A stretch of DNA of 38,001 nt, taken from Ruminococcus sp. Its GTDB lineage: Bacteria > Bacillota > Clostridia > Oscillospirales > Acutalibacteraceae. Below the pieces are notes generated by a model. That model did not search any database. It was not told the DNA's origin and saw nothing but the letters and a program-made list of their open reading frames with translations. The position numbers were made by a program, and so were the translations under genes. Position 1 is the first letter of the stretch. Each line of letters starts with the position of its first letter. This document shows positions 5,227 to 19,304 of the stretch, in pieces. The DNA lies in assembly GCA_017411385.1 (NCBI GenBank), contig JAFQQF010000021.1, positions 1 to 38,001 on the forward strand, read 5' to 3'.

Positions 5227-5640
5227 AAGTTTTTTCCTCCTTAAAAAATTTGTTTTTAGAAAAAATTTGTTATTGTGAAATGCCATTAGTCTTTGCCTGC
5301 CGTCTGACCACCGGAGGGTTCGGACAACCTATACAATACGCAAAGCACGCTTAAACGCACTCTATGCGAAGCACAGTGAATACGACCTGCTTCGCACATT
5401 GCATAGGCTGCCAGATAAAGCCTCGGCATTATCTACCTGAAATTAATATTTATAATGTATATGTAAAAGCCGAACACTTTTGCCTGATTTTCTGAGGAAG
5501 CTTTATGTAACAAAAACTCCCTCAGTCAGCTTCGCTGACAGCTCCCTCTCATAGGAAGCCTTGTTCGGTTACAAGAGGAAAAACAAGGTATAAATAACAA
5601 AATACATACTATCAGTTTAGATAATTTTGCTATTTTATAC
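5227..5640 (-). other. Long 5' leader of the CotH gene
   Basis: If transcription starts just downstream of the promoter at 5647-5674, the CotH mRNA has a leader of about 415 nt without an ORF. It contains one copy of the palindromic repeat (5517-5560) and a 9-bp perfect inverted repeat, TGCGAAGCA at 5365-5373 with TGCTTCGCA at 5388-5396. I recognise no known riboswitch class in it. Confidence 0.4.
5517..5560 (+). repeat. Palindromic intergenic repeat, copy 1
   Basis: The copy begins CTCCCTCA, continues into the hairpin GTCAGC-ttc-GCTGAC (5525-5539) and ends GCTCCCTCTCA. The outer sequence is shared with the copy at 5985-6030, while the stem sequence differs but stays paired. Confidence 0.65.
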
Positions 5641-6030: not shown

Positions 6031-6063
6031 AAAAATACCGCCTCTGAATAAATCAAAGGCGGT
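6031..6063 (-). terminator. Intrinsic terminator of the phage-like operon
   Basis: On the minus strand the stem ACCGCCT (6063-6057) pairs with AGGCGGT (6043-6037) and is followed by ATTTTTG. It lies 34 bp after the stop codon of the last phage gene. Confidence 0.75.
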
Positions 6064-6097
6064 AAACGAAAGGATATGTTATTTTGAATGAGTCATT

Positions 6098-6568
6098 TTA
6101 TCTGAAACCGATTACCCTGTAGGTTTTGCCCGACTCATTGAGGCAATTCATAAATCCATTTTCAGGCTCTTCATCCTGACTGACGGTAACCGACATTGAA
6201 TTAAAGTTTATTCCTGCCGAAAAACCTGCACCATACATTGAAAAGCCTGCGTAGTTCCTTGTGCAAAGAGTTGTGCTGTCATAAACTGCACAGGGCATAG
6301 AATCGCAAAAAACGATTACCGTTGTCACAACCGACGGCAACGCTACTGTACGGCGGGCTTCTCCGTTTCCAACAAAGGAAACCGTCACCATGGGCATTCG
6401 CACTCTGGTTTTTTCTGCTTCGCTTAAGTGAATCTCTGTGTTTTCAATGTGGTCGCCGACTACTTCCTCCACAATGAAGTTGTCACTGTTGAAATCATTT
6501 CTCTGGGGTCTGTCGCTTCCCTGCCACAGGTTAAGCCCCAACCTCTCGGTTTTATTTGCTGATGGCAT
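6098..6568 (-). CDS. Short tail fibre-like protein
   Basis: This 156-aa protein is the last gene of the phage-like operon. Its N-terminus reads TERLGLNLWQGSDRPQRNDF, the type of start that links tail fibres and baseplate-attached proteins to the particle in many Firmicutes phages. The remainder is a compact beta-rich domain with glycine-rich stretches (YGAGFSAGINF). The start ATG at 6568 has AAGGAGGAGAAG upstream and lies 12 nt after the stop of the gpI-like gene. There is no long fibre shaft, receptor-binding repeat region or chaperone gene, so if the particle has a fibre it is very small. Fibre-like is assigned from position and the N-terminal motif. The receptor role is inferred. Confidence 0.6.
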   Translation of the reverse strand: MPSANKTERLGLNLWQGSDRPQRNDFNSDNFIVEEVVGDHIENTEIHLSEAEKTRVRMPMVTVSFVGNGEARRTVALPSVVTTVIVFCDSMPCAVYDSTTLCTRNYAGFSMYGAGFSAGINFNSMSVTVSQDEEPENGFMNCLNESGKTYRVIGFR

Positions 6569-6580
6569 ATCTTCTCCTCC

Positions 6581-7162
6581 TTAAATATCTGCTGTATATA
6601 TATCAATCCTTGACCAAGGCATATTACTCGCATCCATCCTGTCAAAGGTAAGGTTATTGTTATCTATGTCGTCAAAGCAAAAGCCCTGCCAGACAATATC
6701 TATCTCCAAATGAGCAGGAAGCAAGGCTTCAAGCTGAGCACGAAACCAGTTTTTTTGACCTGTGGTAAAGGCTTCCTTTGTGGCATCAAGCACCAGTCGC
6801 TGTGCCTTGGGATACTCCTGCACCTGTGCATCAAGCCCCAAAAAACCCACAAGCTTTTGCACACCCTTCAGGGTAAAATCTTCAAGTCCGAAGGTGCTTC
6901 TGAGCAGTATCATCTGTCGGCGTTTTTCTGTATTCAGGTCATTCCTCACTCTGCCCCAGAGCCTCTCTCTTTCTTCGAGCCCAAAGGACTCCGCAGTTAT
7001 ACAAAAGCACTCTGAAAGCAAGGTGTCAAGCTCTTCACTCAGCATGTCAAGCCCCTCGGCATAAGCTGCAAGCTCGCAGTAAATATTACTGTCCTCGGTT
7101 ATGCTGTATATTCCCAAAGGCTCATGCTTTTTCAAAAGGGAGTTTAAAGCGCCCATACTCAC
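6581..7162 (-). CDS. Baseplate gpI-like / YmfQ (DUF2313) family protein
   Basis: This 193-aa protein sits directly after baseplate J, as P2 gpI and YmfQ-family proteins do. Family-like features are a helical first half, the stretch STFGLEDFTLKGVQKLVGFLG, and the C-terminal PAHLEIDIVW motif followed by DDIDNNNLTFDRMD. In related phages the protein joins the baseplate wedge to the fibres. The ATG at 7162 overlaps the stop of the preceding gene by 4 nt (ATGA), and an in-frame ATG two codons later is an alternative. The length is usual for the family. Confidence 0.75.
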   Translation of the reverse strand: MSMGALNSLLKKHEPLGIYSITEDSNIYCELAAYAEGLDMLSEELDTLLSECFCITAESFGLEERERLWGRVRNDLNTEKRRQMILLRSTFGLEDFTLKGVQKLVGFLGLDAQVQEYPKAQRLVLDATKEAFTTGQKNWFRAQLEALLPAHLEIDIVWQGFCFDDIDNNNLTFDRMDASNMPWSRIDIYTADI

Positions 7163-8220
7163 ACTCCCTCATAAACTCTGATATTGCCTGCCACGGGGTA
7201 GCTGTTCTGTGAGCAGTTTGTGTTACCCCCTGAAGAAACAATTCTGAAATCAGCCACACCCTCTGTGTGATAAAGCTTATCGCTCAGACGGCTCAACACC
7301 ACGCTGTCACCTACACCGCGTGTGCTTATGTAATCCGTCACGATTTTTTTGCATTCCTCTGCCACCTGTGTGAATTCATAGCCGTCGCACACATCCAGAT
7401 AAATCATTAAATCCACTCTCTCGGGCTCTGCTCTATATACAGCCACATCCACATTAACCTCTCTGAGCTGTGAAAGCTTACTCTGCACAGCCTCTAAGGT
7501 TTCATCGGAAACCTCGCTTCCTTCAGCTGAGATGTAAACATCCACCGTACCGGCACCTCTGCCTCGGGGCATAACTCCTGCTCCTGCAACACCTTCTACC
7601 TCTGTGGCTATGGTTTTGTAATAAGCACAGTTTGTACCGTTAGAGGCAAACTTGAAGCTTTCTATTACTCTATCTCTGAGATTTTCGTCACTCTCTCTGT
7701 CAGTACCTGCAGTACACTCATCAGGATTTGTAACCGACTGCACACCTGCTACAGGAGTTACCATAACCGTTATCTTGCCAGCCTTCACATTATAAGCTCT
7801 GCCTTCGCTTAAAGCCTGAATTTGCGCGTGCACACTCAAGGCACCAATGGGTATGCTTACACTCTCAACAGTTTCAAATCTCAAAGGGTATTCCTCATTT
7901 GTAGCCACCACAGTACCCTTGGGAATGTTAATCTCTTGTATTGCAGGCTCTGACACACTGAAAATTACGCTGCCAACAGCTTTTGAAGCCTCACGACGTG
8001 TGAGTCCTCTTTCCATAGCATGCAAATCAAGATACTCCTCCCCTGCAGTGGGTACAAACATTTGCCTTTTAAGCCACTCCATTGTCATATAAGCAGAGTA
8101 AAGCTCTCCTGCCAACACCTGAAGTCTTACATATATGTCCGATGCCTCTGCGGGAGTGTTGCCTGAAATCTCTTTGTATTTTTCTGCCATCCTCGCAAGT
8201 ATATCATCGTAAGTCTGCAT
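7159..8220 (-). CDS. Baseplate J-like protein
   Basis: This 353-aa protein matches the baseplate J family (P2 gpJ, Mu gp47, XkdT), the wedge component that forms the periphery of contractile-tail baseplates. Visible signs are the N-terminal MQTYDDILARMAEKY helix, the LQVLAGELYSAYMTMEWL segment, the GEEYLDLHAMERGLTRREA motif near residue 60, AGSVQS-type beta repeats, and the GTVDVYISAEG motif in the second half. The length is normal. The start overlaps the gp25-like gene by 1 nt (TGATG). Finding an intact contractile-type wedge protein in a cluster without a sheath gene is unusual. Confidence 0.9.
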   Translation of the reverse strand: MQTYDDILARMAEKYKEISGNTPAEASDIYVRLQVLAGELYSAYMTMEWLKRQMFVPTAGEEYLDLHAMERGLTRREASKAVGSVIFSVSEPAIQEINIPKGTVVATNEEYPLRFETVESVSIPIGALSVHAQIQALSEGRAYNVKAGKITVMVTPVAGVQSVTNPDECTAGTDRESDENLRDRVIESFKFASNGTNCAYYKTIATEVEGVAGAGVMPRGRGAGTVDVYISAEGSEVSDETLEAVQSKLSQLREVNVDVAVYRAEPERVDLMIYLDVCDGYEFTQVAEECKKIVTDYISTRGVGDSVVLSRLSDKLYHTEGVADFRIVSSGGNTNCSQNSYPVAGNIRVYEGV

Positions 8221-8567
8221 CAGATAATCACCTCCAGCGACATAATGTTCTCTTTGCAGGCAACCGTAAGCTCTGCAAGAATTCTTCCGTCAACAAGCTG
8301 AGAAGCACAATCCAGACGAAGACTGATATCTTCCATATCCGCCACAGCCTCCTGCAAAATCACCTCCAGCCTTCTGCACTCTCTATCTCCCGAAACATCT
8401 GTAACCGCCTCGGTTCCCATTTCCTTATTATATATGAATCCGCCTTTTTTGGCGGTGATTCTCATAACAATCTGCTGGAGAATTTCCTCTGTGCCCTCTA
8501 TTTTCACAGGAGCTCCTGTGCTGTCAAGAACCATATCTCCGTCTTTAATTTTTATATCCATAGGCAC
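8220..8567 (-). CDS. gp25-like baseplate wedge protein
   Basis: This 115-aa protein lies between the spike and baseplate J, where gp25/gpW/XkdS-type wedge proteins lie. It begins DIKIKDGDMVLDSTG, has the EEILQQIVMRITAKKGGF helix typical of the gp25 fold, a YNKEMGTEA motif, and ends in a beta strand with ILAELTVACKENIMSLEV. In T4 gp25 helps to initiate sheath assembly. The start is ambiguous: a GTG at 8567 overlaps the previous stop by 1 nt, and an ATG lies two codons downstream. Both are served by GGAAAGGAG. Confidence 0.75.
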   Translation of the reverse strand: MPMDIKIKDGDMVLDSTGAPVKIEGTEEILQQIVMRITAKKGGFIYNKEMGTEAVTDVSGDRECRRLEVILQEAVADMEDISLRLDCASQLVDGRILAELTVACKENIMSLEVII

Positions 8568-8902
8568 TAAAACTCCTTTCCGTTAATAAGCACCCTGCCG
8601 TCATTTTTTAGCACTATACTGGCACCGCCCTTGGAGCACAGCATAAGCTCTCCCGATGCAAGCTCCTTGGGGCTTTTTGCAACAACTCCCAAACAAACCT
8701 CACCCGACGGTGTTTCAAGGGTAACGGCTTTTTCGCCTGTTACAGGCACATACATCACTCCGAAGGGTGCTATCAATGGCAGGTCATGATGACTAAGCGT
8801 TGCATCTACCTGAAGTCTTCCGTCTTTTGTACCCATAACGCTGCCCGAGGATGCCGCACTATGCTCTCTAATATTTTTTGCCATAAATGAAGTAAGCCAC
8901 AT
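8567..8902 (-). CDS. Miniature gpV-like tail spike
   Basis: This 111-aa protein is short for a gpV/gp5-type central spike. After an N-terminal leader it has an OB-fold-like segment (GSVMGTKDGRLQVDATL, LIAPFGVMYVPVTGEKAVTL) and then a few beta-helix-like strands (GELMLCSKGGASIVLKNDG). It lacks the long C-terminal needle of most spikes. It lies between the hub gene and the gp25-like gene, in the expected order. AAGGAGAA precedes the ATG at 8902. A second in-frame ATG six codons in is possible. Confidence 0.65.
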   Translation of the reverse strand: MWLTSFMAKNIREHSAASSGSVMGTKDGRLQVDATLSHHDLPLIAPFGVMYVPVTGEKAVTLETPSGEVCLGVVAKSPKELASGELMLCSKGGASIVLKNDGRVLINGKEF

Positions 8903-8904
8903 AA

Positions 8905-9837
8905 TCAGTTCTCCTTCCTCTTTAGGGTAAGTCTTGTGAACTCTTCGTTTTCTGAAAAACTGTATCTTATTCCCGTCACGCAGAAGCCGTCAAGCCTGCC
9001 GATTTCGCTGCTCTCAACACAAGCACAAACCGCGAGCGCATCCGTCATGCAAAAAGGCACCGTCAGTACAATTATTTCGCTTGCTGTTTTTGAAGCACCT
9101 ATCAACCTTTCTGCATCCGCCAGCGTTTTGCTTGAAAGCTCCGTTGCATTGATATAGCGCTCTCTCACAACTTTTCTATCCTGTGCATCCGTGCTGGTCA
9201 CCAGAGCGTTGTAATCCTCACCGGATTTCAGCTTTACCCTTACCTTTGAAATCAGCTTGCATCTGAGTCGGTTATATTCAAGGCTTGTAAAAGCCACACC
9301 CTTACCGCAATCCGAAAAAACCACCTCTGATTCGGAAGCTTTGCCATTCAAAAACAAAGTATCTCCAAACACATAAGGAACCGCGCCCCACACAGCTTTG
9401 GAAAAATCCTGAAGCACCTGCCAGCACGACACGCCCTTTTTCACAACAAAGCTTCCCTTCAGGCTAGCATCTTCAACATCAGCAAGCTTAAACCCGAAGG
9501 GCTTTGCATAACGCTCAAAAATAAGCTTTGCAGACACATCTCTAAAGCTCTGAGGCTTAGCCTCATTGTCAAGGAGAAAAGCTGCCTTGCTTCTGCACAC
9601 AAGCTTTGTTCTCGCGTTTTTGTGCAGAATTATTATCTGCTCATCAACAACTCCGCTGAAAATCTCTTTGTCGTCATCATAAACGCTAATGAATGCAAGC
9701 TCTTGCCACAAGGCAGAGGGAAATTCCAGCGAAAGGCTGTCAGCAGGAGTATTAATATCCCTTGAAAGCACCGCTGACAAAGGCAAAGAGAGGCTGTGCC
9801 TCTCTTCCTTTGTGTCTGTTGCAACAATTCTCAGCAC
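8905..9837 (-). CDS. gpD/XkdQ-like tail hub protein
   Basis: This 310-aa protein matches the late-control gpD/XkdQ hub family, which forms the central ring under the tail tube and carries the spike. It begins with a beta-rich domain (LSLPLSAVLSRDINTPADSL, FSGVVDEQIIILHKNART), then a CWQVLQDFSKAVWG segment near residue 135, and a C-terminal domain ending TGIRYSFSENEEFTRLTLKR. The start is GTG 9837, preceded by AAGGAGGTGAGG, and overlaps the LysM gene stop by 7 nt. The length is typical. Confidence 0.8.
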   Translation of the reverse strand: MLRIVATDTKEERHSLSLPLSAVLSRDINTPADSLSLEFPSALWQELAFISVYDDDKEIFSGVVDEQIIILHKNARTKLVCRSKAAFLLDNEAKPQSFRDVSAKLIFERYAKPFGFKLADVEDASLKGSFVVKKGVSCWQVLQDFSKAVWGAVPYVFGDTLFLNGKASESEVVFSDCGKGVAFTSLEYNRLRCKLISKVRVKLKSGEDYNALVTSTDAQDRKVVRERYINATELSSKTLADAERLIGASKTASEIIVLTVPFCMTDALAVCACVESSEIGRLDGFCVTGIRYSFSENEEFTRLTLKRKEN

Positions 9838-10349
9838 AGCCTCACCTCCTTTAAGAGTGGCAAGTCATCCGCTCGTCTGAGCTGTGGGTTAAGCTCAACC
9901 AATTTATCCACCCTCACGCCGAATTCGTATGCAATATCAAAGAGAGTTTCTCCCTCACGCTGAGGAATATAACCCTTGGGAATATTCTTTAAAGGACTTG
10001 TTTGAGCCTCCATAAACTCAAAGGTATACTCGCAAAAATCAGGAGAAGGCTGTGCCACCAAGGAAAGCTCTGTAAAATAGGCATAAAAAGGGGTGTCAAA
10101 AGGTAGACTCAGCAAGGCCTTCCGCCCCTTTGCAAAAACCTGTGCAAGCTCCTTGTATCTAACAATACAATCCTTGCCTGCAAACTCTCCTTTTCCTTTT
10201 ACAACCCTCAATTTTCTGCCCAAAGGAAATGCAATATTTCCCTGTGAATAAAGGTTATGGACTTTGAAATCATTACTGTATAGCACCTGTACCGACAAGG
10301 GATTGTGCTCCCATTCAAACCCATCGAAACGCATATTTGAAATTATCAC
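9831..10349 (-). CDS. LysM-domain tail protein (XkdP-like)
   Basis: This 172-aa protein has a beta-rich N-terminal domain starting MRFDGFEWEHNP and a C-terminal LysM domain at about 128-172 (GETLFDIAYEFGVRVDKLVE, then LNPQLRRADDLP). In contractile-tail phages the LysM protein normally follows the tape measure and helps form the tail tip or baseplate hub. Here it directly follows a 41-aa gene. The start is GTG 10349 in a GTGA overlap with the stop of that gene. The fold assignment is firm for LysM and inferred for the N-terminus. Confidence 0.75.
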   Translation of the reverse strand: MIISNMRFDGFEWEHNPLSVQVLYSNDFKVHNLYSQGNIAFPLGRKLRVVKGKGEFAGKDCIVRYKELAQVFAKGRKALLSLPFDTPFYAYFTELSLVAQPSPDFCEYTFEFMEAQTSPLKNIPKGYIPQREGETLFDIAYEFGVRVDKLVELNPQLRRADDLPLLKEVRLC

Positions 10350-10471
10350 CCTGCGTCCTCCTCATCCTCAGAAATAAAACGGCTGTAGCGTCTGGAGTCA
10401 CGCTCAAAAGCAAGACTTAAATTTTCTGCCTGTAAAAGCTCAGAGTATATATTTTCATTGTTTCCTTCCAT
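10346..10471 (-). CDS. 41-aa acidic/amphipathic protein in the tape-measure position
   Basis: A short ORF starts at ATG 10471, one nucleotide after the upstream stop, and ends at 10346 in a GTGA overlap with the LysM gene, so it looks translationally coupled on both sides. The product begins MEGNNENIYSELLQAENL, is predicted helical in the middle (LLQAENLSLAFERDSRRY) and ends in an acidic tail (SEDEEDAG). No family is recognised. Its place is where the tape-measure chaperone and tape measure lie in PBSX-like clusters, yet it is at least ten times shorter than a usual tape measure. Coding status rests on the tight overlaps and the clean fit between neighbours. Confidence 0.65.
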   Translation of the reverse strand: MEGNNENIYSELLQAENLSLAFERDSRRYSRFISEDEEDAG

Positions 10472-10472
10472 A

Positions 10473-11252
10473 TCACTCACCGTTCCTTTTTGTAATCTCC
10501 CTTTGCAGACTCAGGAAGCTGTAGCACCTTACATCTGCGTTTTTTGGTTCTGAGTTCTCTGTGATTTTTTTGGCAACGCAACTTCTGAACAAACAGGATT
10601 CATCTGTCTGCTTCAAAGCTATATCAGGTTTTTCGCAGGCTTCAAAAGGGTCGCTGTCACTTCTCACCTTAATTTCAAGGGTATAGTTTTTCCCCTTTGA
10701 AATCACCCCTGTATCACCACATAAAAGCTCTCTTAAAACATAAACCTCGTCTGTAGCTGTTGTCTGTGCACTCAACACCTTCGCAGCCTTGCCGTTAACA
10801 AATATCTCTACGCTGTCGCCTGTCGGAAGAGGCAAAGGCTCCTCGTCATTGGAAGGACTCATCTCCCACAAAAGCTTAGCCTGAAGCATCTGTGTCTGGG
10901 TACACAAATCTTTATCGTATACCGCAGGTGTAATCTTTATATCCGAAATCTCATTCTCGGTATCCGCCCTGTCAAGGGCATCCATAAGATTTACGCAAAG
11001 AGCAGAAAGCTCACTTGCACCCTTATCAAAGGGAGCGTAAACCTGAAAGCACAGCTGAGCTTCAAAGCTTCTGTTTGAACGAGCATCCTTTTCTTTATGT
11101 ATCTCACCCACAAAGCAAGCAACAAAAAAGCTTGTGACGGGCTTCTCAGCCCCTTGGGATTTTCTTCCCTTTACAAACCTGACTGATAAAAACTCATCGT
11201 AGGTTTTAATTCTTCTTATAAGTTTATCAAGTACATTCTGGGGTCTAAGCAT
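10473..11252 (-). CDS. Composite neck/tail protein (tail-terminator-like N-terminus, possible tube-like C-terminus)
   Basis: This 259-aa protein follows two neck proteins. The N-terminal ~140 residues resemble a tail-terminator or neck protein (helix MLRPQNVLDKLIRRIKTYDE, a strand pair around FVACFVGEIHKE, the helix ELSALCVNLMDALDRA). After a PLPTGD linker near residue 145, the C-terminal ~115 residues form a new beta-rich domain (VEIFVNGKAAKVLSAQ, KNYTLEIKVRSDSDPFE, VRCYSFLSLQREIT). That domain pattern recalls tail-tube subunits, which start with a short strand, end with a conserved strand and contain a central helix or loop. This likeness is weak and inferred. The ATG overlaps the previous gene by 8 nt. 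No separate tube gene exists in the window. Confidence 0.5.
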   Translation of the reverse strand: MLRPQNVLDKLIRRIKTYDEFLSVRFVKGRKSQGAEKPVTSFFVACFVGEIHKEKDARSNRSFEAQLCFQVYAPFDKGASELSALCVNLMDALDRADTENEISDIKITPAVYDKDLCTQTQMLQAKLLWEMSPSNDEEPLPLPTGDSVEIFVNGKAAKVLSAQTTATDEVYVLRELLCGDTGVISKGKNYTLEIKVRSDSDPFEACEKPDIALKQTDESCLFRSCVAKKITENSEPKNADVRCYSFLSLQREITKRNGE

Positions 11253-11598
11253 AGTCGTCCTCCATAGGGGGTGAGTAGGTAGTCAGCACCGCCCAGATAT
11301 ACAAATCATCTTCTCCTAAATGCACACGTTCACTGCGTTTTATAGTGTAGCTTTCACTATTGCAGGTGATAACAGCAGAGCGGTAATCTCTGACAAAATC
11401 CGAGCAAGATGCAATCATCAGATAGTGTCCGGCATCGTAGTAGCCTGCAGACAGCTCACTTCCTCCCAGATACATCTTGTTCTTATACATAAGAGGTTGG
11501 ATGATTGCCTTTATCTCAAAGCTTCCGAGCTTATCCTTTACAGTAACATCGCTTCCGTATTTTTGAAGCATTTTGCTGATATTTTTCTGCACACTCAC
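11245..11598 (-). CDS. Head-tail joining (neck) protein
   Basis: This protein of about 117 aa lies in the XkdI position, after the capsid and the first connector. It is beta-rich with ends typical of neck or stopper proteins (FEIKAIIQPLMYKNKMYLGG, AGYYDAGHYLMIASCSD, YIWAVLTTYSPP). I set the start at GTG 11598 because it forms a GTGA overlap with the preceding stop and follows AGGGGTGTGAGG. An upstream in-frame start at 11619 would overlap more. The family assignment rests mainly on position and size. Confidence 0.6.
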   Translation of the reverse strand: MSVQKNISKMLQKYGSDVTVKDKLGSFEIKAIIQPLMYKNKMYLGGSELSAGYYDAGHYLMIASCSDFVRDYRSAVITCNSESYTIKRSERVHLGEDDLYIWAVLTTYSPPMEDDYA

Positions 11599-11963
11599 AG
11601 CCTCACACCCCTGAAACAAAAATCATCATGGGACTGGAGTAAATCACTTACACCGTTTTTTTCAAACTCCCAAAGGTCGTGTGCTTTCTTTGTATCATAC
11701 TGTGCTTTTGTAATACTCACAGACCCTGCTGTGAAGGATTTCACTTCGTCACGCTCCATATAAAGACAGTACTTGTAGTAAGCAAGCACTCCTGCCAAAG
11801 CACAAAGCCTGAGTATACTATCCTCATCCGAGAGAGCTTCTTTTGAAGCCTTTGCTTTTACCTGAAGCATAGCGTCAATGCAGACCGGAATCCACATTGA
11901 AACCTCGTGGGGCTCAAGACCCGACACAAGGGTAAATCTGTTTATTACCTCATTAAGCCTCAA
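11595..11963 (-). CDS. Head-tail connector / adaptor protein
   Basis: This 122-aa, mostly helical protein directly after the major capsid gene fits the gp6/XkdH-like adaptor that docks on the portal. It has an N-terminal helix (MRLNEVINRFTLVSGL), an SMWIPVCIDAMLQVKAK helix and a hydrophobic ILRLCALAGVLAYYKYCLYM helix, followed by the SFTAGSVSITKAQY strand motif common in these adaptors. The start codon is TTG at 11963, preceded by AAGGAGGG with about 7 nt spacing. It overlaps the next gene by 4 nt. Confidence 0.6.
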   Translation of the reverse strand: MRLNEVINRFTLVSGLEPHEVSMWIPVCIDAMLQVKAKASKEALSDEDSILRLCALAGVLAYYKYCLYMERDEVKSFTAGSVSITKAQYDTKKAHDLWEFEKNGVSDLLQSHDDFCFRGVRL

Positions 11964-11978
11964 GCCTTTCCCTCCTTA

Positions 11979-12989
11979 TCAGTATGTAAGCTTCACAGCC
12001 GCATCGTTAAAGATTTTTGCAAAGCCTGAGATACAGCTGATGGTAGCACGCTCAAGCTGTCTGTCGATGAGCTTGTCGTAATCTGTGATAATGTCGCCTG
12101 CCTGCACCATTTCCAGAGCACAGTTCTTATCAATACCGATAATTGTGCCTGAGGGCACAGAAGTTGTATGCACAAGCTTTGCACCCAGAGGTGTCACCAT
12201 ATTGCCTGTGCCGTGGAAACTCTGACCTGCCACAGAATCCTTAAGCTCAGACATAGCAAGAAGCTTTGTCATTGCGTCTGTGGGTGCAAGGATGGTTGTC
12301 ATCTCGTAGGGAGAAAGCTCTGCCCAGAGCTTCACCAAATCCTCGTAGGAAATTTTCTCTGTGCTCACAGCGGTAATACCCTTACAGGGATTTGAGTTAC
12401 CGTCACCTGAAAGAAGCACATCAACTGCATCTTTAAGCTGTGCTCTTGCAATGTAGGCACCAATCTGCTTGAGAGTCACAGTGAAAAGGTCAAGTCGCTG
12501 GAATCTGAGTGCCTCGTAGGAAGTCACCAGCATTCTGCCGCGCTTGTGAAGCTTCACAAGATTCTCCTGAGTAGAAACCTTTGTCTGGGGAATATAAGCA
12601 CCCTCAGCAACTCTCACCAAGGACTTGTCATCCTCAGAGGGTGTGGAGGTGATGCTTCTGTAATCCATGCCGTTAATCTCGGTTTTTGCCGCAATAATGT
12701 CAGAAAGCACGTCTGCCTGCTCCATACCCTGTCTTACAGCACGACACACATACTCGGGGAAAAGTGCCGCTGACTGGGTTGTTGCAAAGAACTTCTCCAC
12801 AGGGTCGCTCTTTGCACCGCTTACTCTGATATCAAAACGCTTGAGCTGACGTGAAAAAGCGTCAAGACCTTCAAGCTCACTACCCATATAGTTTACCGAA
12901 GGGTCAAGCTCCTCCAGAATATCCGTCATACTCTTGCCGCTGTAGCCGTACATTCCTCTTTCAAGGGAAATTTTCTCGTAATTAGCCAT
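11979..12989 (-). CDS. Major capsid protein (HK97-like fold)
   Basis: This 336-aa protein lies between the decoration protein and the first connector, the standard place for the major capsid. Supporting features are the E-loop-like region (RVAEGAYIPQTKVSTQENLV), a spine helix (LFTVTLKQIGAYIARAQLKDA) and A-domain-like strands (TTILAPTDAMTKLLAM, GAKLVHTTSVPSGTIIGID), with ERATISCISGFAKIFNDAA near the end. It has no N-terminal scaffold domain, which fits scaffold being carried by the protease gene. AAGGAG lies upstream of the ATG. Length is normal, and the protein contains several cysteines. Confidence 0.85.
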   Translation of the reverse strand: MANYEKISLERGMYGYSGKSMTDILEELDPSVNYMGSELEGLDAFSRQLKRFDIRVSGAKSDPVEKFFATTQSAALFPEYVCRAVRQGMEQADVLSDIIAAKTEINGMDYRSITSTPSEDDKSLVRVAEGAYIPQTKVSTQENLVKLHKRGRMLVTSYEALRFQRLDLFTVTLKQIGAYIARAQLKDAVDVLLSGDGNSNPCKGITAVSTEKISYEDLVKLWAELSPYEMTTILAPTDAMTKLLAMSELKDSVAGQSFHGTGNMVTPLGAKLVHTTSVPSGTIIGIDKNCALEMVQAGDIITDYDKLIDRQLERATISCISGFAKIFNDAAVKLTY

Positions 12990-13009
12990 ATTTTTCTCTC
13001 CTTATCTTA

Positions 13010-13342
13010 TTAAAGAATAAAGCCTGCTGTGTTTTCGTCAGCAGTAATCACAAGCACCTGTCTGCCTGTTTCATCTGCCTTAACCTTACCCTCGGCAGTT
13101 GCAGAAACGTTTGTAAAACCGCAGGACACTTCACCATCACAAGCAAGTGTTACAAAGCCTGCAACCTGAACTGATGCAAAGCTGTCACGTACATTCACGC
13201 ACACACCGCAGATTTTGTCACCCTCTGCACAAGCTGTCACCTTACCGCTTTCAACAACCTTTACAGGCACACCTGCCTTAACAGTTTCATCACACTCAAA
13301 GGTGATTGTGTTTTCCATAAAACCCATAAAACTTTTATTCAT
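13010..13342 (-). CDS. Capsid decoration (cement) protein, DUF2190-like
   Basis: This 110-aa all-beta protein sits between the protease/scaffold and the capsid gene. Motifs typical of head decoration proteins are AGVPVKVVESGKVTACAEGD, KICGVCVNVRD, a VQVAGFVTLACDG strand pair and a C-terminal AGFIL. Such proteins bind the assembled capsid surface and stabilise packaged heads. It has six cysteines in 110 residues. ACGGAGG precedes the ATG. Function is inferred from order and pattern. Confidence 0.65.
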   Translation of the reverse strand: MNKSFMGFMENTITFECDETVKAGVPVKVVESGKVTACAEGDKICGVCVNVRDSFASVQVAGFVTLACDGEVSCGFTNVSATAEGKVKADETGRQVLVITADENTAGFIL

Positions 13343-13353
13343 ATTAACCTCCG

Positions 13354-14334
13354 TCAGATTTTAAATTCTCTGTTGCCTGCAGTCTTATTCTGAGTATTAT
13401 CGCAGGCTTTCTTTGTCAAAGGCATAAGCTTCTGCTCTGCCTTCTTCTTATAAAAAGTCAGGAACTCTTTAAGTTCACAAACGGAAAGTCCCTTCATAGC
13501 ACTTTCCATAGTGCTTCTTGATATACCTTCCTGAGAAAGCATAGAATATCTCAGAACATCATTTTCAAGCTCCTGTCTGTACGCTTCACCCTGTCTAGCT
13601 TTTTCCTGCAGGGTAGTAATGTGCTCATAAAGACGTTTTGCTTCATCAACACACAAGGTAACACTATCTCCGTGAGAAAGTGCTTTCATAATTTCATTCA
13701 TACCTTCAAACTCCTTTTTAGGGGACTTCTCAAAAGACTTGATAACCCCTGCTTCTCTCTGGGCAGGTACTGCCACAAAGCTCCACTCATAAGCATCCGT
13801 TACATCGCAAAGCTCAAAGTAGCACATAGTGTCTGCGTACATTTGTCCCTTGATATGACCGCAGGGCGTTTTACCCTTTTCACTACCGCACACAGAGCAC
13901 ACCGCACGCTGAGCACTCACACCTACACTTACTTCCTTTCTGATTCCGCTTTCAATCTGCATAATAACATCCTCAGAGCTTTTGCATCTGGGAATATATG
14001 CCTTTGCAACCAGACGGAAATAGTCATCTCCCAGAGATGTTTTTCTGCCTTCCACCGCCTCAACACGGCAGTCAAAAATTCTTGCAGTCTGATTAACTGC
14101 TCTGGGGCTGTGGTCGTAGATACCCGTTTTGCCTACAAAGAGCTTTTCCATCTGAAACAACGACTCCACAGTAAACCGCTCAAAGTCCCTGTCCACGTCA
14201 TTGTCGCACAGCACCACAGAAAAGATATAGACCTCATCCGGTGCAAATGCACGCCTTGTATATCTGTTTACAAGCTCCATATCCTGCTCTGTTGTACTAT
14301 TATCCAAGCTTTTAATTATCTCGCCTGATTTCAA
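13354..14334 (-). CDS. Prohead protease fused to scaffold
   Basis: This 326-aa protein has a protease-like N-terminal domain (residues ~30-200) with IYDHSP as the probable catalytic histidine motif and KEVSVGVSA as the probable serine motif. The C-terminal third (about 215-326) is helical and charged, as expected for a scaffold (EAKRLYEHITTLQEKARQ, ELKEFLTFYKKKAEQ). Between them is CSVCGSEKGKTPCGH, which looks like a small zinc knuckle. The start is TTG 14334, in a TTGA overlap with the portal stop and after GGAAAGGTGAG; the first in-frame ATG is about 18 codons later. In HK97-like phages this protein directs capsid assembly and then cuts itself out. Confidence 0.75.
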   Translation of the reverse strand: MKSGEIIKSLDNSTTEQDMELVNRYTRRAFAPDEVYIFSVVLCDNDVDRDFERFTVESLFQMEKLFVGKTGIYDHSPRAVNQTARIFDCRVEAVEGRKTSLGDDYFRLVAKAYIPRCKSSEDVIMQIESGIRKEVSVGVSAQRAVCSVCGSEKGKTPCGHIKGQMYADTMCYFELCDVTDAYEWSFVAVPAQREAGVIKSFEKSPKKEFEGMNEIMKALSHGDSVTLCVDEAKRLYEHITTLQEKARQGEAYRQELENDVLRYSMLSQEGISRSTMESAMKGLSVCELKEFLTFYKKKAEQKLMPLTKKACDNTQNKTAGNREFKI

Positions 14335-15476
14335 GTGCTCACCTTTCCTTCCCTTTCAATCTTCTCAGCCTGTGCATTCCAAAGTCTTGCCTGTGCAAGC
14401 TCTGTTTCGTCAAGAAGCGAAACGTTGTCCCACACAACACTCACCGAAGAATCCGAGCCTAAAAATCTCAGCTGAGTACGGGCAATTTTTTCAATTACCG
14501 GTGTGAGCAGAGAACGAAAATACTCCAGCTCACTTGTAAGAATATCTGCCTGCACACTGCTCATTCTCTCTGTGCTCGACCATGAAAGCCCCAAGAGAAA
14601 AGGCGGAATACACAGCTTTGACACAATCTGCTCCAAAATATGCCTTATGGGAACATCGCAGTCCAGCACCTGAGAGTCGGCACCGATAACCTTTACGGAC
14701 ACATCCCCCACAGCCACAAAGTCACACACACCGCTGTCATCTCTCATGGCTCTTGACCACTCCCGAGCAATCTCGGTAGCTCGCTGACGGGCATTCACCC
14801 CTGAGTTTTCCGAAGGCTTGTAGGTTACCGCATAGCGGATGTTACCTGCACGCTCAAAGTTGTTGCCTATGCATCCGAGAATTTTAAGCAGTATTGAGCT
14901 TACAAAAGGCAGTCCCTTCAAAAGCGAATTACCTCTTACAGATCCCGCTTCCGCCTTAAGCAAAGAAGTGAGCAGAAGCTCCTGATTTTCTAAGGGTGTG
15001 TTGTTAATATCTCTTCTGCACACAAGCACCTCCATAGGGCTCTCGCCTTTTGCCACCGAAACATCCTTTAACGATGCATTGTAAAGCCCTGCAATGGTTC
15101 TCATATCCATATCGGGTACAATCTCACCGACTGCGCTGCCGTAGGTGAGAAGCTGGTCAAGGTATGTCTGCACAAAGCAGGCAAGTCCTGTGCCGCAGGC
15201 GCCAACCTTAACATTCTTCGTAAATTGTTCCAAAGGCTTCTGAAACCTCTCATCCTCAACGGAAAGAGTAAAGCTTCCTACCAGATGCACAAGCTTATCA
15301 AGTGCCGCATCAATCAAGGGAATTGCTTCTCTCAGAGAAGAATAAAGCTCAAGCTCCGCTTCACAGCAGGGAGAATATCTGTCAAATGCTGTGAAAGGGT
15401 GGGCATATACATTACGTTTATCTGCTGTCTGCACAGGTGCAGGCTGTGTCTTGTTTTTCTTAGAAAATAACTTCAC
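14331..15476 (-). CDS. Portal protein
   Basis: This protein of about 381 aa forms the DNA entry ring at one capsid vertex. It follows TerL and carries the family's central and C-terminal features (EIVPDMDMRTIAGLYNASL, LLKGLPFVSSILLKILG, the LCIPPFLLGL clip/wing motif, and the helical SSVQADILTSELEYFRSLL stretch). I chose GTG 15476 because AGGAGG lies 7 nt upstream. The longer frame from 15518 would overlap TerL by 59 nt and has no better ribosome-binding site. It overlaps TerL by 17 nt and the protease by 4 nt. At about 380 aa it is compact compared with the 450-500 aa of many portals. Confidence 0.85.
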   Translation of the reverse strand: MKLFSKKNKTQPAPVQTADKRNVYAHPFTAFDRYSPCCEAELELYSSLREAIPLIDAALDKLVHLVGSFTLSVEDERFQKPLEQFTKNVKVGACGTGLACFVQTYLDQLLTYGSAVGEIVPDMDMRTIAGLYNASLKDVSVAKGESPMEVLVCRRDINNTPLENQELLLTSLLKAEAGSVRGNSLLKGLPFVSSILLKILGCIGNNFERAGNIRYAVTYKPSENSGVNARQRATEIAREWSRAMRDDSGVCDFVAVGDVSVKVIGADSQVLDCDVPIRHILEQIVSKLCIPPFLLGLSWSSTERMSSVQADILTSELEYFRSLLTPVIEKIARTQLRFLGSDSSVSVVWDNVSLLDETELAQARLWNAQAEKIEREGKVST

Positions 15477-16734
15477 AGCTTTTCCTCCTGTCAGCGGCAA
15501 AGGCAAAGAAATCCTCACCGCTGTCTTCTAAAATTGTTGTGACGAAATATCTTATATCGTCCATGGCGTGATCGTACTCCTTGACAGGCGACTCCACTCC
15601 CTCTTTTTCATCCCAGCGATAAAGCGAGAATTCTCTTTTAGCATCAACACAGTTTCTGCAGATTTTAATTCTGCCTGATTTAAGTGCCGTAGACACACTG
15701 CGTATACCATCAGTCACAGAGTTTTTCGCAGGCACAACAGAAAACCTGCCGTGCCGTTTTATCACCTGAATGAAGCTTGCCGCAGAGGGGTCAACGGTAA
15801 CACACCTTACAGGGTGTTCACCGCAAAGGACACACAGAGCAGAGTAGTGCTCCTCATCTGTCCTTTGCAGCCCCTCTTTTTTTGAGTCATAGTAATACTC
15901 GTCAATTCTGTACCACACCCCTGATTTAAGCCCCCAGAGTCCGAAGGAGGCAGGATTCACCGTGCCGTAATCACAGGACACAGCATAATCCTCAAAGGGA
16001 AAATCGGGTACTTCACAAAAAGCACCCTCTTTGTCCATAAAGGGGTACACCGCACCCGAAACCGCTGTCCATTCACCCTTTACAAACCTTCGGTAAAAGC
16101 TTCCCGAATACATCCCCTCGTACCTTTTGCGGATTTCATCCGAAAGGGAAGGGTTGTCGTCCATAAGGAAGTGAACATACAAAGCGTTTTTCTCTTTTGC
16201 CTTCTTCACCCACTCTCTGTAAAACCAGTGAGCAGGATGCTCAGGGTTACAATTAAACCAGAACTTAGAGCCACCTACCGAACAACGTGCCAAAGCCTGC
16301 TCCACAAAGGAACGGGGCATCAGTGCCACCTCATCAAGCAAAACCCCCGAAAGAGTCATTCCCTGAATAAGCGATTGAGAGGACTCGTCCTTGCCTCCGA
16401 AAAGGTAAAATCTGTTTTCCTTCCCCTCGTAGGCAATTTGCAGGTAATTGGACGAGATGTTCTCTTTGACCGAAAACCCCATTTCTCTGAGTAATGGTAA
16501 TATGGGAACAGTCACATTTCGTCTGACAGAACGTATTGTTTTGGAGCATATGGCAAAGGATGCATCCGAAAATCGGGAGAAAGCCCAGACGATGAATGAC
16601 ACCGCCATACAAAAGGTTTTTCCCGACCTTACTGCACCGTCGCATATAATCGCATCACAATCTTTAAACTTTGAGTTTCCACACCACCAAGTGAGCAAAA
16701 GCATCTGTTTTTTTGAGAAAGGTTTAAGCTTCAT
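15460..16734 (-). CDS. terL: Terminase large subunit
   Basis: This 424-aa protein is the DNA-packaging motor. Residues ~30-40 hold the Walker A motif (CDGAVRSGKT) and ~130 the Walker B motif (LSGVLLDEVALM). FWFNCNPEHPAHWFY marks the motor C-motif region. The nuclease domain keeps its acidic residues in CDYGTVNPASFG, VTVDPSAAS and HAMDDIRY. The length is typical of PBSX/SPP1-like terminases. The ATG overlaps the terS stop by 11 nt. Nothing in it suggests inactivation, which argues that packaging capacity is retained. Confidence 0.92.
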   Translation of the reverse strand: MKLKPFSKKQMLLLTWWCGNSKFKDCDAIICDGAVRSGKTFCMAVSFIVWAFSRFSDASFAICSKTIRSVRRNVTVPILPLLREMGFSVKENISSNYLQIAYEGKENRFYLFGGKDESSQSLIQGMTLSGVLLDEVALMPRSFVEQALARCSVGGSKFWFNCNPEHPAHWFYREWVKKAKEKNALYVHFLMDDNPSLSDEIRKRYEGMYSGSFYRRFVKGEWTAVSGAVYPFMDKEGAFCEVPDFPFEDYAVSCDYGTVNPASFGLWGLKSGVWYRIDEYYYDSKKEGLQRTDEEHYSALCVLCGEHPVRCVTVDPSAASFIQVIKRHGRFSVVPAKNSVTDGIRSVSTALKSGRIKICRNCVDAKREFSLYRWDEKEGVESPVKEYDHAMDDIRYFVTTILEDSGEDFFAFAADRRKSCEVIF

Positions 16735-17218
16735 CCGCCGTTACCCCGCAGTCTTTTAGTGCCGCAGCTCCTGCACAAAGAGCTTCAATAACAGGAGATG
16801 CCCCTTTCTCCTCAAAGCTGTCCTCGCAAAGCTTCTCAAGAGCCTTGAAGCGGTCAAAAAATTTAATCTCCATAGAGCCGTCCTTGGGACGTTTTATTTC
16901 TGCTACAGAAAATAAATTCATCTGCTCCAGCTCCTTTGCACTCGGGTTCTCCATATATAAAAGAGAAACCGCATCAGCAATGCTCCCAAAAGCAAGCCTT
17001 GCGTAGCCTGTGCAGGCAAGAGAAGCGGCAGTCTGCTTTTTCAGCAAACAGATTCTTGCTATCTCCGAAGCTATATCCTCTCTTGATAAAAGCTCATTAC
17101 CTTTTTTCAGACTGTCGTTTTTAAAGCCGGCGGCTTCTGCCGCCAATCTGGAATTACCGCACTCAGAATACTGCCTGCAAAATTCCTTTTCTCTTTTGGT
17201 AAGCCCTTTTAATTTCAT
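16724..17218 (-). CDS. terS: Terminase small subunit
   Basis: This 164-aa protein opens the operon and matches the Terminase_2/XtmA-type small subunits that recognise DNA and recruit the large subunit. It begins LTKREKEFCRQYSECGNSRL followed by an AAEAAGFKN helix-turn-helix, then LLSREDIASEIARI, and a C-terminal segment with IKFFDRFKALEKLCE. GAGGAGG lies 7 nt before the ATG. It is the first gene after the divergent promoter region shared with the spore germination-type gene. Confidence 0.85.
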   Translation of the reverse strand: MKLKGLTKREKEFCRQYSECGNSRLAAEAAGFKNDSLKKGNELLSREDIASEIARICLLKKQTAASLACTGYARLAFGSIADAVSLLYMENPSAKELEQMNLFSVAEIKRPKDGSMEIKFFDRFKALEKLCEDSFEEKGASPVIEALCAGAAALKDCGVTADEA

Positions 17219-17272
17219 CTTAAACCTCCTCGTTTGTTCGTAGTGCTCTCACTTTTCCCTCAAAAAACAAAA

Positions 17273-17298
17273 AAAGTTGCATATATTCATGCAACTTT
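17273..17298 (-). terminator. Terminator-like hairpin in the terS / spoVAF divergent region
   Basis: AAAGTTGCAT (17273-17282) pairs perfectly with ATGCAACTTT (17289-17298) over a 6-nt loop. On the minus strand it is followed by a T-rich run (17272-17261), which makes it look like an intrinsic terminator 55 nt upstream of terS. It may insulate the phage operon from upstream transcription, act as an attenuator, or be an operator palindrome. Confidence 0.5.
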
Positions 17299-17393
17299 TC
17301 AAAAAATTTTAAAACTTTATTCTGTTTATTTTTCTTCTGCTTGTAAAATACATATTCTGCCTTTTTGCTCACAAACTACCACAGGGTGAAAAT

Positions 17394-18782
17394 ATGCTTA
17401 CAACAAACTTAGCAGAAAACAAAGAGCTTATGGACAAAGTTTTACGCGCAAATGAAAGCTTTGACATCATAAGGCGTGACATTGTAATCAACAACCGCGA
17501 AGCACGCATCTACTCCATAGACGGTCTTGTAAAGGACACGGTTATGGGCAAGATTATGACTTTCTTTTACGGACTCAAAGACGAGAACGTAATGCAGGAT
17601 GCAGACACCTTCACAAAAAGCTGTGTGCCCTACATCGAGGTCAACACAGAAAAAGACATAAATGTTATTTCCCAGAACATTTTAAGCGGTATAAGTGCAT
17701 TGTTTGTAGACGGCTTTGACTGTGCTGTAATGATGGATACCCGCACCTACCCTCAGCGACAAACCAGCGAACCCGACACCGACAAGGTTATGCGAGGCAG
17801 TAAGGACGGCTTTGTGGAAACCATCATCAGCAACATCGCTCTGATGCGAAGAAGAATAAGAGATGCAAACTTCACGGTAAAGCCATTCTCCGTCAGCCGC
17901 ACCTCAAAAGCAGATGTAGTGCTCTGCTATATGGAAAACAAGGTGGACCACAAGCTTCTCAAATCCATAACACAGCGGATTGAAAACATCAAGGTTGACT
18001 CTCTTGCAATGAATCAGCAAAGCCTTGTGGAGGCAATTTATCCGCGAAAATGGTACAACCCCTTCCCGAAAATCAAGTACACGGAGCGTCCCGATTCTGC
18101 CGCCGCCAATGCCATAAAAGGCAATATTATCATACTTGTGGACAATTCCCCCTCAGCACTCATACTGCCCACCTCTATCTTCGATGTTACAGAGGAAGCC
18201 GATGACTACTACTTTCCGCCCTTCACAGGCTCGTACCTGCGCCTTGCAAGATTTCTCATCCTGCTTTGCTCGGTGTTCATTACCCCTGTGTGGCTCCTTG
18301 CACAGGAAAACCCTGCCGTCATACCGCAAAGTCTGCAATTCATAGTAGTTGAGCAAGAATACAATATCTCCGTCTTCTGGCAGTTAATAATCTTGGAACT
18401 TGCCATAGACGGTCTGCGGCTTGCCGCTTTGAATACCCCCGCAACTCTTTCAGGTACTATGGGTATCATCGGCGCTATTGCTTTGTCGGAATTCTCTGTT
18501 GACGTAGGCTGGTTTTCCACTCAGGCAATCCTCTATATGGCATTTGCTACGCTGGCAGGCTTTACTCAGCCTAACTACGAGCTGGGCTACTGTGTAAAAT
18601 TCATCCGAATACTACTTCTGATACTCACTTCTCTTTTCAATGTATGGGGGTTCTTGGCAGGACTTATAATCACCGCCATACTCCTTGTAACCAACAAAAC
18701 CGTATCGGGAAAAAGCTACCTCTATCCCCTCATTCCCTTCAACGGCAAAGCCTTCATAAACAAGGTGCTGAGATTGAGATAA
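17394..18782 (+). CDS. GerA-family spore membrane protein, SpoVAF-like
   Basis: This 462-aa protein belongs to the GerA spore germination family and is closer in length and motif to SpoVAF than to germinant-receptor A subunits. It has a soluble N-terminal half with the signature TSEPDTDKVMRGSKDGFVE followed by LMRRRIRD, and a C-terminal half with about five membrane segments (near 285-310, 325-350, 365-385, 390-410, 415-440). SpoVAF-type proteins lie in the spore inner membrane and modulate germination. The SpoVA channel genes are not adjacent. AGGGTG precedes ATG 17394. It converges with spmB with a 6-bp gap and no visible terminator. Confidence 0.8.
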   Translation: MLTTNLAENKELMDKVLRANESFDIIRRDIVINNREARIYSIDGLVKDTVMGKIMTFFYGLKDENVMQDADTFTKSCVPYIEVNTEKDINVISQNILSGISALFVDGFDCAVMMDTRTYPQRQTSEPDTDKVMRGSKDGFVETIISNIALMRRRIRDANFTVKPFSVSRTSKADVVLCYMENKVDHKLLKSITQRIENIKVDSLAMNQQSLVEAIYPRKWYNPFPKIKYTERPDSAAANAIKGNIIILVDNSPSALILPTSIFDVTEEADDYYFPPFTGSYLRLARFLILLCSVFITPVWLLAQENPAVIPQSLQFIVVEQEYNISVFWQLIILELAIDGLRLAALNTPATLSGTMGIIGAIALSEFSVDVGWFSTQAILYMAFATLAGFTQPNYELGYCVKFIRILLLILTSLFNVWGFLAGLIITAILLVTNKTVSGKSYLYPLIPFNGKAFINKVLRLR

Positions 18783-18788
18783 TCCCTT

Positions 18789-19298
18789 TCAATCCATAAA
18801 CAATCTCACCGTCAGCACAGAGAAAACCACAGCTGTAAAATCTGCACACAAGCCTGCAAGCAGGGTGTGGCGTGATTTCTTAATCCCCACACTACCGTAA
18901 TACACGGCTATAGCATAAAAGGTGGTTTCTGTAGAACCTGCCATTACCGATACAATCCGCCCTGCAAAGCTGTCAGGTCCCAGTCTTTCCAGAATATCCA
19001 CCAGCAGGGCGGTGGAGCCTCCTCCGGATATAGGTCTGAGCAAAGCCACAGGCACAATCTCAGCAGGAAATCCCATTCTCTGTGCCACAGGACTTATAAG
19101 CTCTGTGAGCATATCTATGGCACCGCTTGCTTTGAGCATAGAAACCGCAGTTATAAGCCCCACCAAAGTCGGTGCTATAAGATACGCTGTGTGCAAACCT
19201 TCTTTTGCACCCTGCAAAAAGGCATCAAACACCCCCACTTTTCTGACTATACCCACACCTATAAAAAGCACCACTATCAAAGGCACTGCTATGTCCAC
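18789..19298 (-). CDS. spmB: Spore maturation protein B
   Basis: This 169-aa membrane protein is a nucleoside-recognition (Gate) domain protein acting with SpmA in spore core dehydration and heat resistance. The motifs LLRPISGGGSTALLVDIL and VMAGSTETTFYAIAVYYGSV are typical of SpmB. It has about four to five hydrophobic segments. The start is GTG 19298 after AAGGGGTGA, 6 nt downstream of the spmA stop, so the two form one operon. Confidence 0.9.
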   Translation of the reverse strand: MDIAVPLIVVLFIGVGIVRKVGVFDAFLQGAKEGLHTAYLIAPTLVGLITAVSMLKASGAIDMLTELISPVAQRMGFPAEIVPVALLRPISGGGSTALLVDILERLGPDSFAGRIVSVMAGSTETTFYAIAVYYGSVGIKKSRHTLLAGLCADFTAVVFSVLTVRLFMD

Positions 19299-19304
19299 CG
19301 CAAA

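Follow-up and report, generated by a model that had tools for sequence, protein, structure and literature searches.

A sheathless phage-type capsid and baseplate cluster of Ruminococcus: a candidate gene-transfer-agent-like element of the Oscillospirales

Gene content of the cluster

The stretch of DNA considered here, called the window throughout, comprises 38,001 nucleotides from Ruminococcus sp. (GenBank assembly GCA_017411385.1, contig JAFQQF010000021.1, positions 1 to 38,001; contig C53 of a 2.1-Mb, 62-contig assembly). From 17218 down to 6098 its minus strand carries a cluster of 17 open, co-directional genes for phage-type packaging, head and baseplate proteins, many of whose junctions overlap or abut; the map of open reading frames (ORFs) bears out the initial annotation on this arrangement. 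We consider it reasonably probable that these genes form operon I of a gene-transfer-agent (GTA)-like element that is inherited vertically, is controlled by the host and encodes a particle with a sheathless and nearly tailless injection end. The product would probably be a gene-transfer particle released by cell lysis. This reading starts from four direct observations: the gene content, a shared palindrome, purifying selection and a tree that follows host families. The features of the locus, with protein lengths in amino acids (aa), are as follows:

17238..17300, minus: putative operator/leader module upstream of terS (palindrome TTGCAT-N6-ATGCAA at 17277-17294)
16724..17218, minus: terS, terminase small subunit (Pfam Terminase_2, 5.8e-14)
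15460..16734, minus: terL, terminase large subunit (Pfam Terminase_6N, 2.3e-16)
14331..15518, minus: portal (phrog_30703, 1.9e-117)
13354..14334, minus: 326-aa protein in the head protease/scaffold position (phrog_16951, unknown function, 2.4e-90)
13010..13342, minus: 110-aa virion structural, decoration-like protein (phrog_4588, 2e-17)
11979..12989, minus: major capsid protein (Pfam Phage_capsid_4, 3.5e-16)
11595..11963, minus: 122-aa neck protein (by position; conserved in relatives)
11245..11619, minus: 124-aa neck protein, stopper position (by position; conserved in relatives)
10473..11252, minus: 259-aa predicted tail terminator fused to tail tube (AlphaFold2, Foldseek, phrog_37)
10346..10480, minus: 44-aa mini tape-measure candidate (C-terminal motif in common with a 77-292 aa protein of sheathed relatives)
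9831..10349, minus: LysM baseplate protein (Pfam LysM, 1e-5)
8905..9837, minus: baseplate hub (phrog_177, 3.8e-14)
8567..8902, minus: 111-aa protein in the spike position (phrog_25991, unknown function, 4.1e-8)
8220..8567, minus: gp25-like protein (Pfam Sheath_initiator, 4.9e-5, below cut-off)
7159..8220, minus: baseplate J, gpJ (Pfam Baseplate_J, 3.8e-48)
6581..7162, minus: gpI/gp48-like baseplate protein (Pfam Phage_Mu_Gp48, 6.2e-5, below cut-off)
6098..6568, minus: 156-aa protein of the last gene, candidate fibre adaptor (its residues 1-45 align with the start of phrog_33092, 2.4e-6)
6036..6064, minus: terminator-like hairpin directly downstream of the cluster (12 pairs and a T tail)

The head and baseplate identities first proposed for these genes agree with the family searches: TerS, TerL, portal, capsid, LysM, hub and gpJ are matched, with gp25 and Mu gp48 below the Pfam cut-off. 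The 326-aa protein also has a weak match to head maturation proteases (0.0017), the 122-aa and 124-aa neck proteins have no Pfam or PHROG family match, and phrog_33092, matched by the last gene, is a family of 998 positions and unknown function. The terminator called after the cluster is found as the 12-pair hairpin at 6064-6036; the hairpin search gave 2 terminator-like sites in a 1-kb stretch versus 0.9 in shuffles. The ORF map and the Pfam and PHROG matches of the cluster proteins disclose no integrase, lysis or replication gene, in line with the reported lack of an integration gene. The reported lack of lysis genes is correct for this locus and incorrect for the genome, in which fibre, GH25 endolysin and holin genes lie on contig C13.

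No Pfam sheath match is present in the cluster or anywhere in the window's genome, and the interval between the neck and LysM genes holds no long ORF, as expected from the initial annotation. A Pfam sheath elsewhere in the genome is likewise absent from 13/14 same-genus genomes; the other one (G026) has a single sheath, on a contig other than that of its element. Compared with a contractile particle of the myophage or PBSX type, the cluster is thus without the sheath and the long tape measure and retains a predicted tube. A second contractile prophage as supplier of parts was ruled out by the single Baseplate_J match in each of the window's genome (G000), G002 and G033; with one such gene in the window's genome, no second contractile phage supplies the parts there.

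The interval had been described as holding only proteins of 259 and 41 aa and as lacking tube and terminator. The second protein has 44 aa, and the first is predicted to be both missing parts in one, a fusion of tail terminator and tail tube. Its AlphaFold2 model has two domains (predicted local distance difference test score, pLDDT, 89.4). The whole protein matches the lambda tail terminator gpU in Foldseek, and residues 5-120 have a weak match to the tail terminator family phrog_37 (0.0076). A relative encodes the second half as a separate gene, whose Foldseek matches are tail tubes (monocin, lambda V, phiCD508); lambda gpU does not appear in the 50 rows given for this half alone. As the Foldseek rows come without aligned ranges, the division into halves is a combined reading of these results, by which the C-terminal half supplies the tube fold of a contractile particle. 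In most same-genus relatives terminator and tube are two genes, and a single ORF of 239-287 aa covers their place in 11/72 merged near-relative loci. The sheathless loci L165 (5416-6120) and L292 (10854-11582) have one ORF with matches to the tube as well as to the stopper-position protein; this would be another fusion, and would fit a single tube ring.

The predicted fusion suggests a tail one tube ring long, because a 1:1 covalent join of terminator and tube would be hard to reconcile with more than one ring. A tape measure spans about 1.5 angstrom per residue, so that a measure of 44 aa would reach across little more than one such ring. The 44-aa protein itself looks like a shrunken tape measure: the ORF before LysM ends in a shared [RQ][DE][AS]RR[YF]-type motif, and where it was found it has a median length of 191 aa in sheathed loci (25/37) and of 44 aa in other loci (66/129). 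The earlier statement that a tape measure is lacking holds for one of several hundred residues, in whose place, the part of the genome covered by this search, only the 44-aa ORF is found; it does not hold for the short candidate.

Upstream of the cluster, at 17394-19892, lies a divergent neighbour that we take to be related to the spore germination protein SpoVAF, followed by what are presumably spmB/spmA-like genes. A link with sporulation through these neighbours was dropped because the SpoVAF-like one is kept in only 36/133 loci (duplicates unmerged). Downstream, at 1-5286, is a protein of more than 1762 aa with a signal-like start, cut by the start of the window; a similar protein also follows the cluster in L034.

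Conservation, selection and inheritance

A TerL of the window type is present in 32/35 other genomes of the genus. Among 20 fetched related stretches, 16 share the gene order, and their stopper-position gene and LysM lie 813-946 nt apart; in five of these 16 only the last gene is without a match. The remaining four comprise two other prophages that share little more than TerL (L040, L052) and two contigs that end inside the cluster (L051, L053). The short interval recurs in all 65 near-relative loci in which both flanking genes are present, the near-relative set being the best 80 of at least 549 matches. After loci whose capsid ends are identical had been combined, 214 remained, and gene presence was scored with profiles built from these same loci. 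The nearest named records, among the matches listed, are Ruminococcus sp. and Clostridia assemblies, many of them from ruminant guts.

The cluster is kept by purifying selection. The pooled ratio of nonsynonymous to synonymous substitution rates (dN/dS) is 0.08, 0.13 and 0.18 in three pairs, the last being the window versus L054, with synonymous sites near saturation. Single-gene values do not exceed 0.38, except for the 44-aa gene in one pair; they lie at 0.05-0.26 for the genes from LysM to gpI in the window's lineage, and conservation is highest in TerS, TerL, portal and capsid. These low ratios, together with the open frames and the family-wide sharing of the cluster, leave almost no room for a decaying prophage remnant whose frames stayed open by chance, a reading that the missing sheath, chaperone and long tape measure would otherwise suggest. 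The first of the two explanations offered in the initial annotation, that a recently domesticated prophage underwent a precise deletion, is not supported, given the same ratios, the family-wide short interval and the distribution and tree described next: the relatives share the gap, and no pooled ratio approaches 1.

A sheath profile, adopted after classes based on interval length had misled in some f14 loci, finds the sheath in 0/20 loci of the window's host family (f1), 16/20 of f14, 6/19 of f25 and 1/1 of f7, so the sheath is kept in sister families. A representative sheath matches two Pfam sheath domains (3.5e-15 and 1.8e-11). The sheathed relatives in f14 and f25 have homologous genes in the same order as the window cluster and differ from it in keeping a sheath of ~342 aa (PF17482, 3.5e-15), a chaperone-like gene and a tape-measure-like protein of 77-292 aa. 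From the sheathed to the window type, the sheath and the chaperone-like gene are gone and the tube is kept. Smaller forms also occur: the f25 loci L244-L251, L256 and L261-L263 are clusters of ~7 kb that end at the hub gene, and L293, L296, L298 and L303 (f1 genera g36, g39 and g50) consist of capsid and neck genes, with the last gene kept in L293 and L303. The contractile tail appears to have been pared down stepwise in an inherited particle.

The capsid profile A1 matches 101/395 sampled genomes of the order, with a single match in 98 of these 101; it is found in 51/60 sampled f1 genomes, in G352 as two short pieces only. When a tree of TerL, portal and capsid from 71 loci (quick method) was compared with the host family assignment, f1, f14 and f25 each fell on one side of a branch (support 82, 81 and 98), with three family changes in all, the minimum possible; the two loci of genus g39 are separated from each other. 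This split by host family is as predicted by vertical inheritance, which would date from before the split of these families.

Similar contigs exist in virus collections. Of 15 capsid matches among phage records, five are close (58-67%), all of them unannotated 'Bacteriophage sp.' from human faeces, and the other ten are at 24-32%. The element is carried by L134-L213 (IMG/VR), MT835952, MT836604, MT835508 and others, many of 10-13 kb. At least some of the 10-13 kb contigs in virus collections appear to be genes of a host element. Their listing as viral contigs, with the small size and the missing tail parts, might speak for a phage satellite or small mobile phage whose helper supplies the rest. 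We regard this as very unlikely: neither an integrase nor another sign of mobility is found in the cluster, the tree follows host family, nearly all carrying genomes have a single copy, and the divergent neighbour is the same in 36/133 loci (duplicates unmerged).

The palindrome upstream of terS and a second operon

Upstream of terS stands the palindrome TTGCATGAATATATGCAA (17277-17294); a T-tract and a GGG..GTGAGAG stretch come after it. A scan of 142 loci for matching 6-base arms found a spacing of 6 in 65 of them and no more than 7 loci for any of the other spacings in the range 2-12, with spacing 6 in 2/142 random windows; the scan admitted arms starting TTG, TTC or TCG, picked after seeing the sequences. 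The arms are TTGCAT (40), TTGACC (7), TTGCAC (5), TCGACC (5), TTGTAC (4), TTGCCC (2) and others (2). By group, the spacing-6 palindrome occurs in 49/78 near relatives, 6/18 f25 loci, 1/1 f7 and 2/6 viral contigs. The fixed spacing combined with paired arm changes points to a DNA operator bound by a dimeric regulator. An RNA hairpin or attenuator is less likely, since the arms differ between loci and the spacing stays at 6, and the window has no Rfam match. As for a promoter directly behind the palindrome, the ribosome-binding site follows too closely at some sites; a promoter or an RNA function may reside in the leader.

The 17 same-genus genomes searched contain 64 sites of the exact TTGCAT form (N4-6), between 1 and 8 per genome, and a reversed-palindrome control gives zero sites in 13 of the 17. 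Eleven sites are at the element and 53 elsewhere. In the window's genome the exact form occurs at two places: at terS and at C13:128993, which is 41 nt before the gene of a 715-aa protein with a tail fibre match (phrog_5240, 1.7e-28) and a GDSL domain. Behind the same palindrome lie GH25 endolysin (1.7e-31) and holin (1.4e-35) genes, from which we infer common control of lysis and structural genes. The endolysin (L329:6223-7158) ends in a dockerin-like region (PF00404, 0.00028, just below cut-off). A palindrome-plus-leader model matches 22/22 same-genus genomes and 0/2 others, and in the window's genome it picks out the sites at terS and on C13; its training set included both of these and many of the other matched sites. 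Comparable palindrome-led arrangements are an SPP1-type holin with GH25 in G033 and G015, and fibre-like and CHAP-like genes in G012, G017 and G016.

Forty of the 53 non-element sites were fetched. The leader score exceeds 1.7 at 31 of them, 1.7 being the 99% point of single random windows, a lenient comparison as sites were given the better of two orientations. In a BLAST comparison that is partly circular, as its reference proteins came from seven of these loci, fibre or lysis genes follow 10 of the 31 sites and replication-initiator-like proteins follow 5. Palindrome-led proteins of 103-174 aa (L332:4058-4369, L333 and L334 in G033; L341:4095-4436 and L342 in G026; L365 in G025) match the DNA-binding N-terminal parts of phage replication initiators and of DnaD-like helicase loaders. 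They are possibly the regulator or a reused replication part; none is seen behind the palindrome in the window's genome.

The proposed particle, its rivals and related systems

On the GTA-like reading, a putative dimeric regulator would bind the TTGCAT-N6-ATGCAA operator and switch on two operons: capsid and baseplate genes in the window, and tail-fibre, GH25 endolysin and holin genes on contig C13. TerS and TerL would fill a small capsid with host DNA, and the head would be closed by the portal, the neck proteins and the terminator ring. As each terminator subunit would be covalently joined to one tube subunit, the tail would be a single ring, for which the 44-aa tape-measure remnant would suffice. 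A myophage-type baseplate (LysM, hub, spike position, gp25, gpJ, gpI) with fibres would sit on this ring without a sheath. Holin and endolysin would then lyse the producing cell, and the particle would deliver DNA to kin. The traits common to GTAs that are present are vertically inherited phage-type head and packaging genes, purifying selection and the absence of integrase and replication genes from the cluster. The initial annotation had alternatively proposed a selected minimal particle, GTA-like or with the capsid joined almost directly to the baseplate; this is supported by the shared gap and by dN/dS of 0.08-0.18. The cluster and the absence of the sheath were correctly recognized. What had been overlooked is the tube, fused to the terminator; the fibre and lysis genes, on another contig, were out of its view.

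Several points weigh against this reading. The element is known here from its genes alone, from which we infer packaging and transfer, and we know of no working baseplate without a sheath. Three of the 35 same-genus genomes have no TerL match, in assemblies 78-89% complete. The 44-aa gene has a dN/dS of 0.90 in one pair (48 codons), where constraint is not evident. The palindrome is found in only 2/19 other-genus f1 loci and 5/20 f14 loci, and in 6/17 same-genus genomes its exact TTGCAT form is not at the element. Baseplate_J is absent from 10/11 searched f25 genomes with hub-ending clusters (G245 has it on another contig) and from all four f1 genomes with capsid-and-neck clusters (G202, G220, G238, G431). 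With lineages that have no baseplate genes, DNA injection would not be the role of the element everywhere, unless other genes replace the baseplate. Such truncated clusters could also mean a capsid-based device with another job, e.g. storage, release or degradation of DNA in lysing cells, with the baseplate as a dispensable remnant. We think this unlikely, given that the baseplate genes are under purifying selection in the window's lineage and that the fibre operon has the same palindrome.

The GTA-like element resembles known domesticated particles in different respects. The RcGTA family of Alphaproteobacteria is domesticated and vertically inherited, has dispersed genes, and is siphovirus-like with a tape measure. 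The window element is like it in inheritance and gene dispersal, and its tube-like protein matches the RcGTA tube fold 6tba in Foldseek; it differs in not being siphovirus-like, and no sequence kinship between the two is seen. PBSX of Bacillus subtilis has the gene order TerS, TerL, portal, protease, capsid, neck, ..., LysM, hub, gp25, gpJ, gpI, which the window cluster matches. PBSX keeps the sheath, tube, chaperone and long tape measure, with lysis genes in the same cluster; in contrast, the window cluster has no sheath, chaperone or long tape measure, and its lysis genes are at another locus. PBSX packages random 13-kb host fragments, according to the excerpt of the report available (PMC7667829), and is described as acting as a tailocin in the accessible part of a second one (PMC12946183). 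A domesticated killer particle of this type, which packages DNA and is selected for killing or perforating competitors through baseplate and fibres, would moreover explain why fibre genes vary from relative to relative alongside a conserved capsid, as specificity would predict. We hold it to be improbable nonetheless, with the force-producing sheath gone family-wide and TerS, TerL, portal and capsid the best conserved genes.

In design, the closest published system would be FpGTA of Faecalibacterium. In the text accessible, it comprises a chromosomal packaging/capsid operon of ~10 kb with TerS, TerL, portal and capsid, and, in a second operon, genes for the baseplate, fibre, receptor binding, holin and endolysin, and has no visible tail (PMC12946183). 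As far as that text goes, the two systems are alike in belonging to Gram-positive gut bacteria, apparently of the same order, and in pairing a packaging/capsid operon with a second one for fibre and lysis functions, and differ in that the window element has its baseplate, of contractile type, in operon I. In sequence they tentatively look unrelated. Genus g112, which has no match to capsid profile A1 or, in 4 genomes, to TerL, is the only genus that matches a Faecalibacterium marker protein (~50% identity, 3/395 genomes), and is tentatively Faecalibacterium or close to it; a Faecalibacterium 16S probe has no match in 21 genomes, nor in 395. Either FpGTA would be a different family, or g112 would not be Faecalibacterium. 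The titles and abstract openings listed in the literature searches contain no description of the element family reported here.

More broadly, we tentatively suggest, with somewhat less confidence than we place in the GTA-like nature of the window element, an ancient order-wide family of cell-owned DNA-packaging particles whose contractile tail was dismantled in steps by selection. Sheath, chaperone and long tape measure would have been lost and the terminator fused to the tube to leave one ring; the baseplate would then have been lost in some lineages, with capsids ending at hub or neck. In the window's lineage one regulator would serve the particle and the dispersed fibre and lysis genes. Such a family would explain the GTA-like packaging events in gut Oscillospirales that lack an assigned operon: this packaging is reported in Ruminococcus callidus, with 4.6 kb packaged, and in CAG-115, Gemmiger, Onthomonas and Christensenellaceae, and in the portion of the paper available an operon is named only for Faecalibacterium (PMC12946183). 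The element family is a candidate for some of these events, with testable loci in many gut species. The presence of a host element among virus-collection contigs matters for virome statistics, and the palindrome offers a handle for finding the regulator and co-regulated parts. The capsids without baseplate in f1 raise the question of their role, and the natural series from sheathed through sheathless to nearly tailless forms lets one ask what the smallest DNA-delivery end may be.

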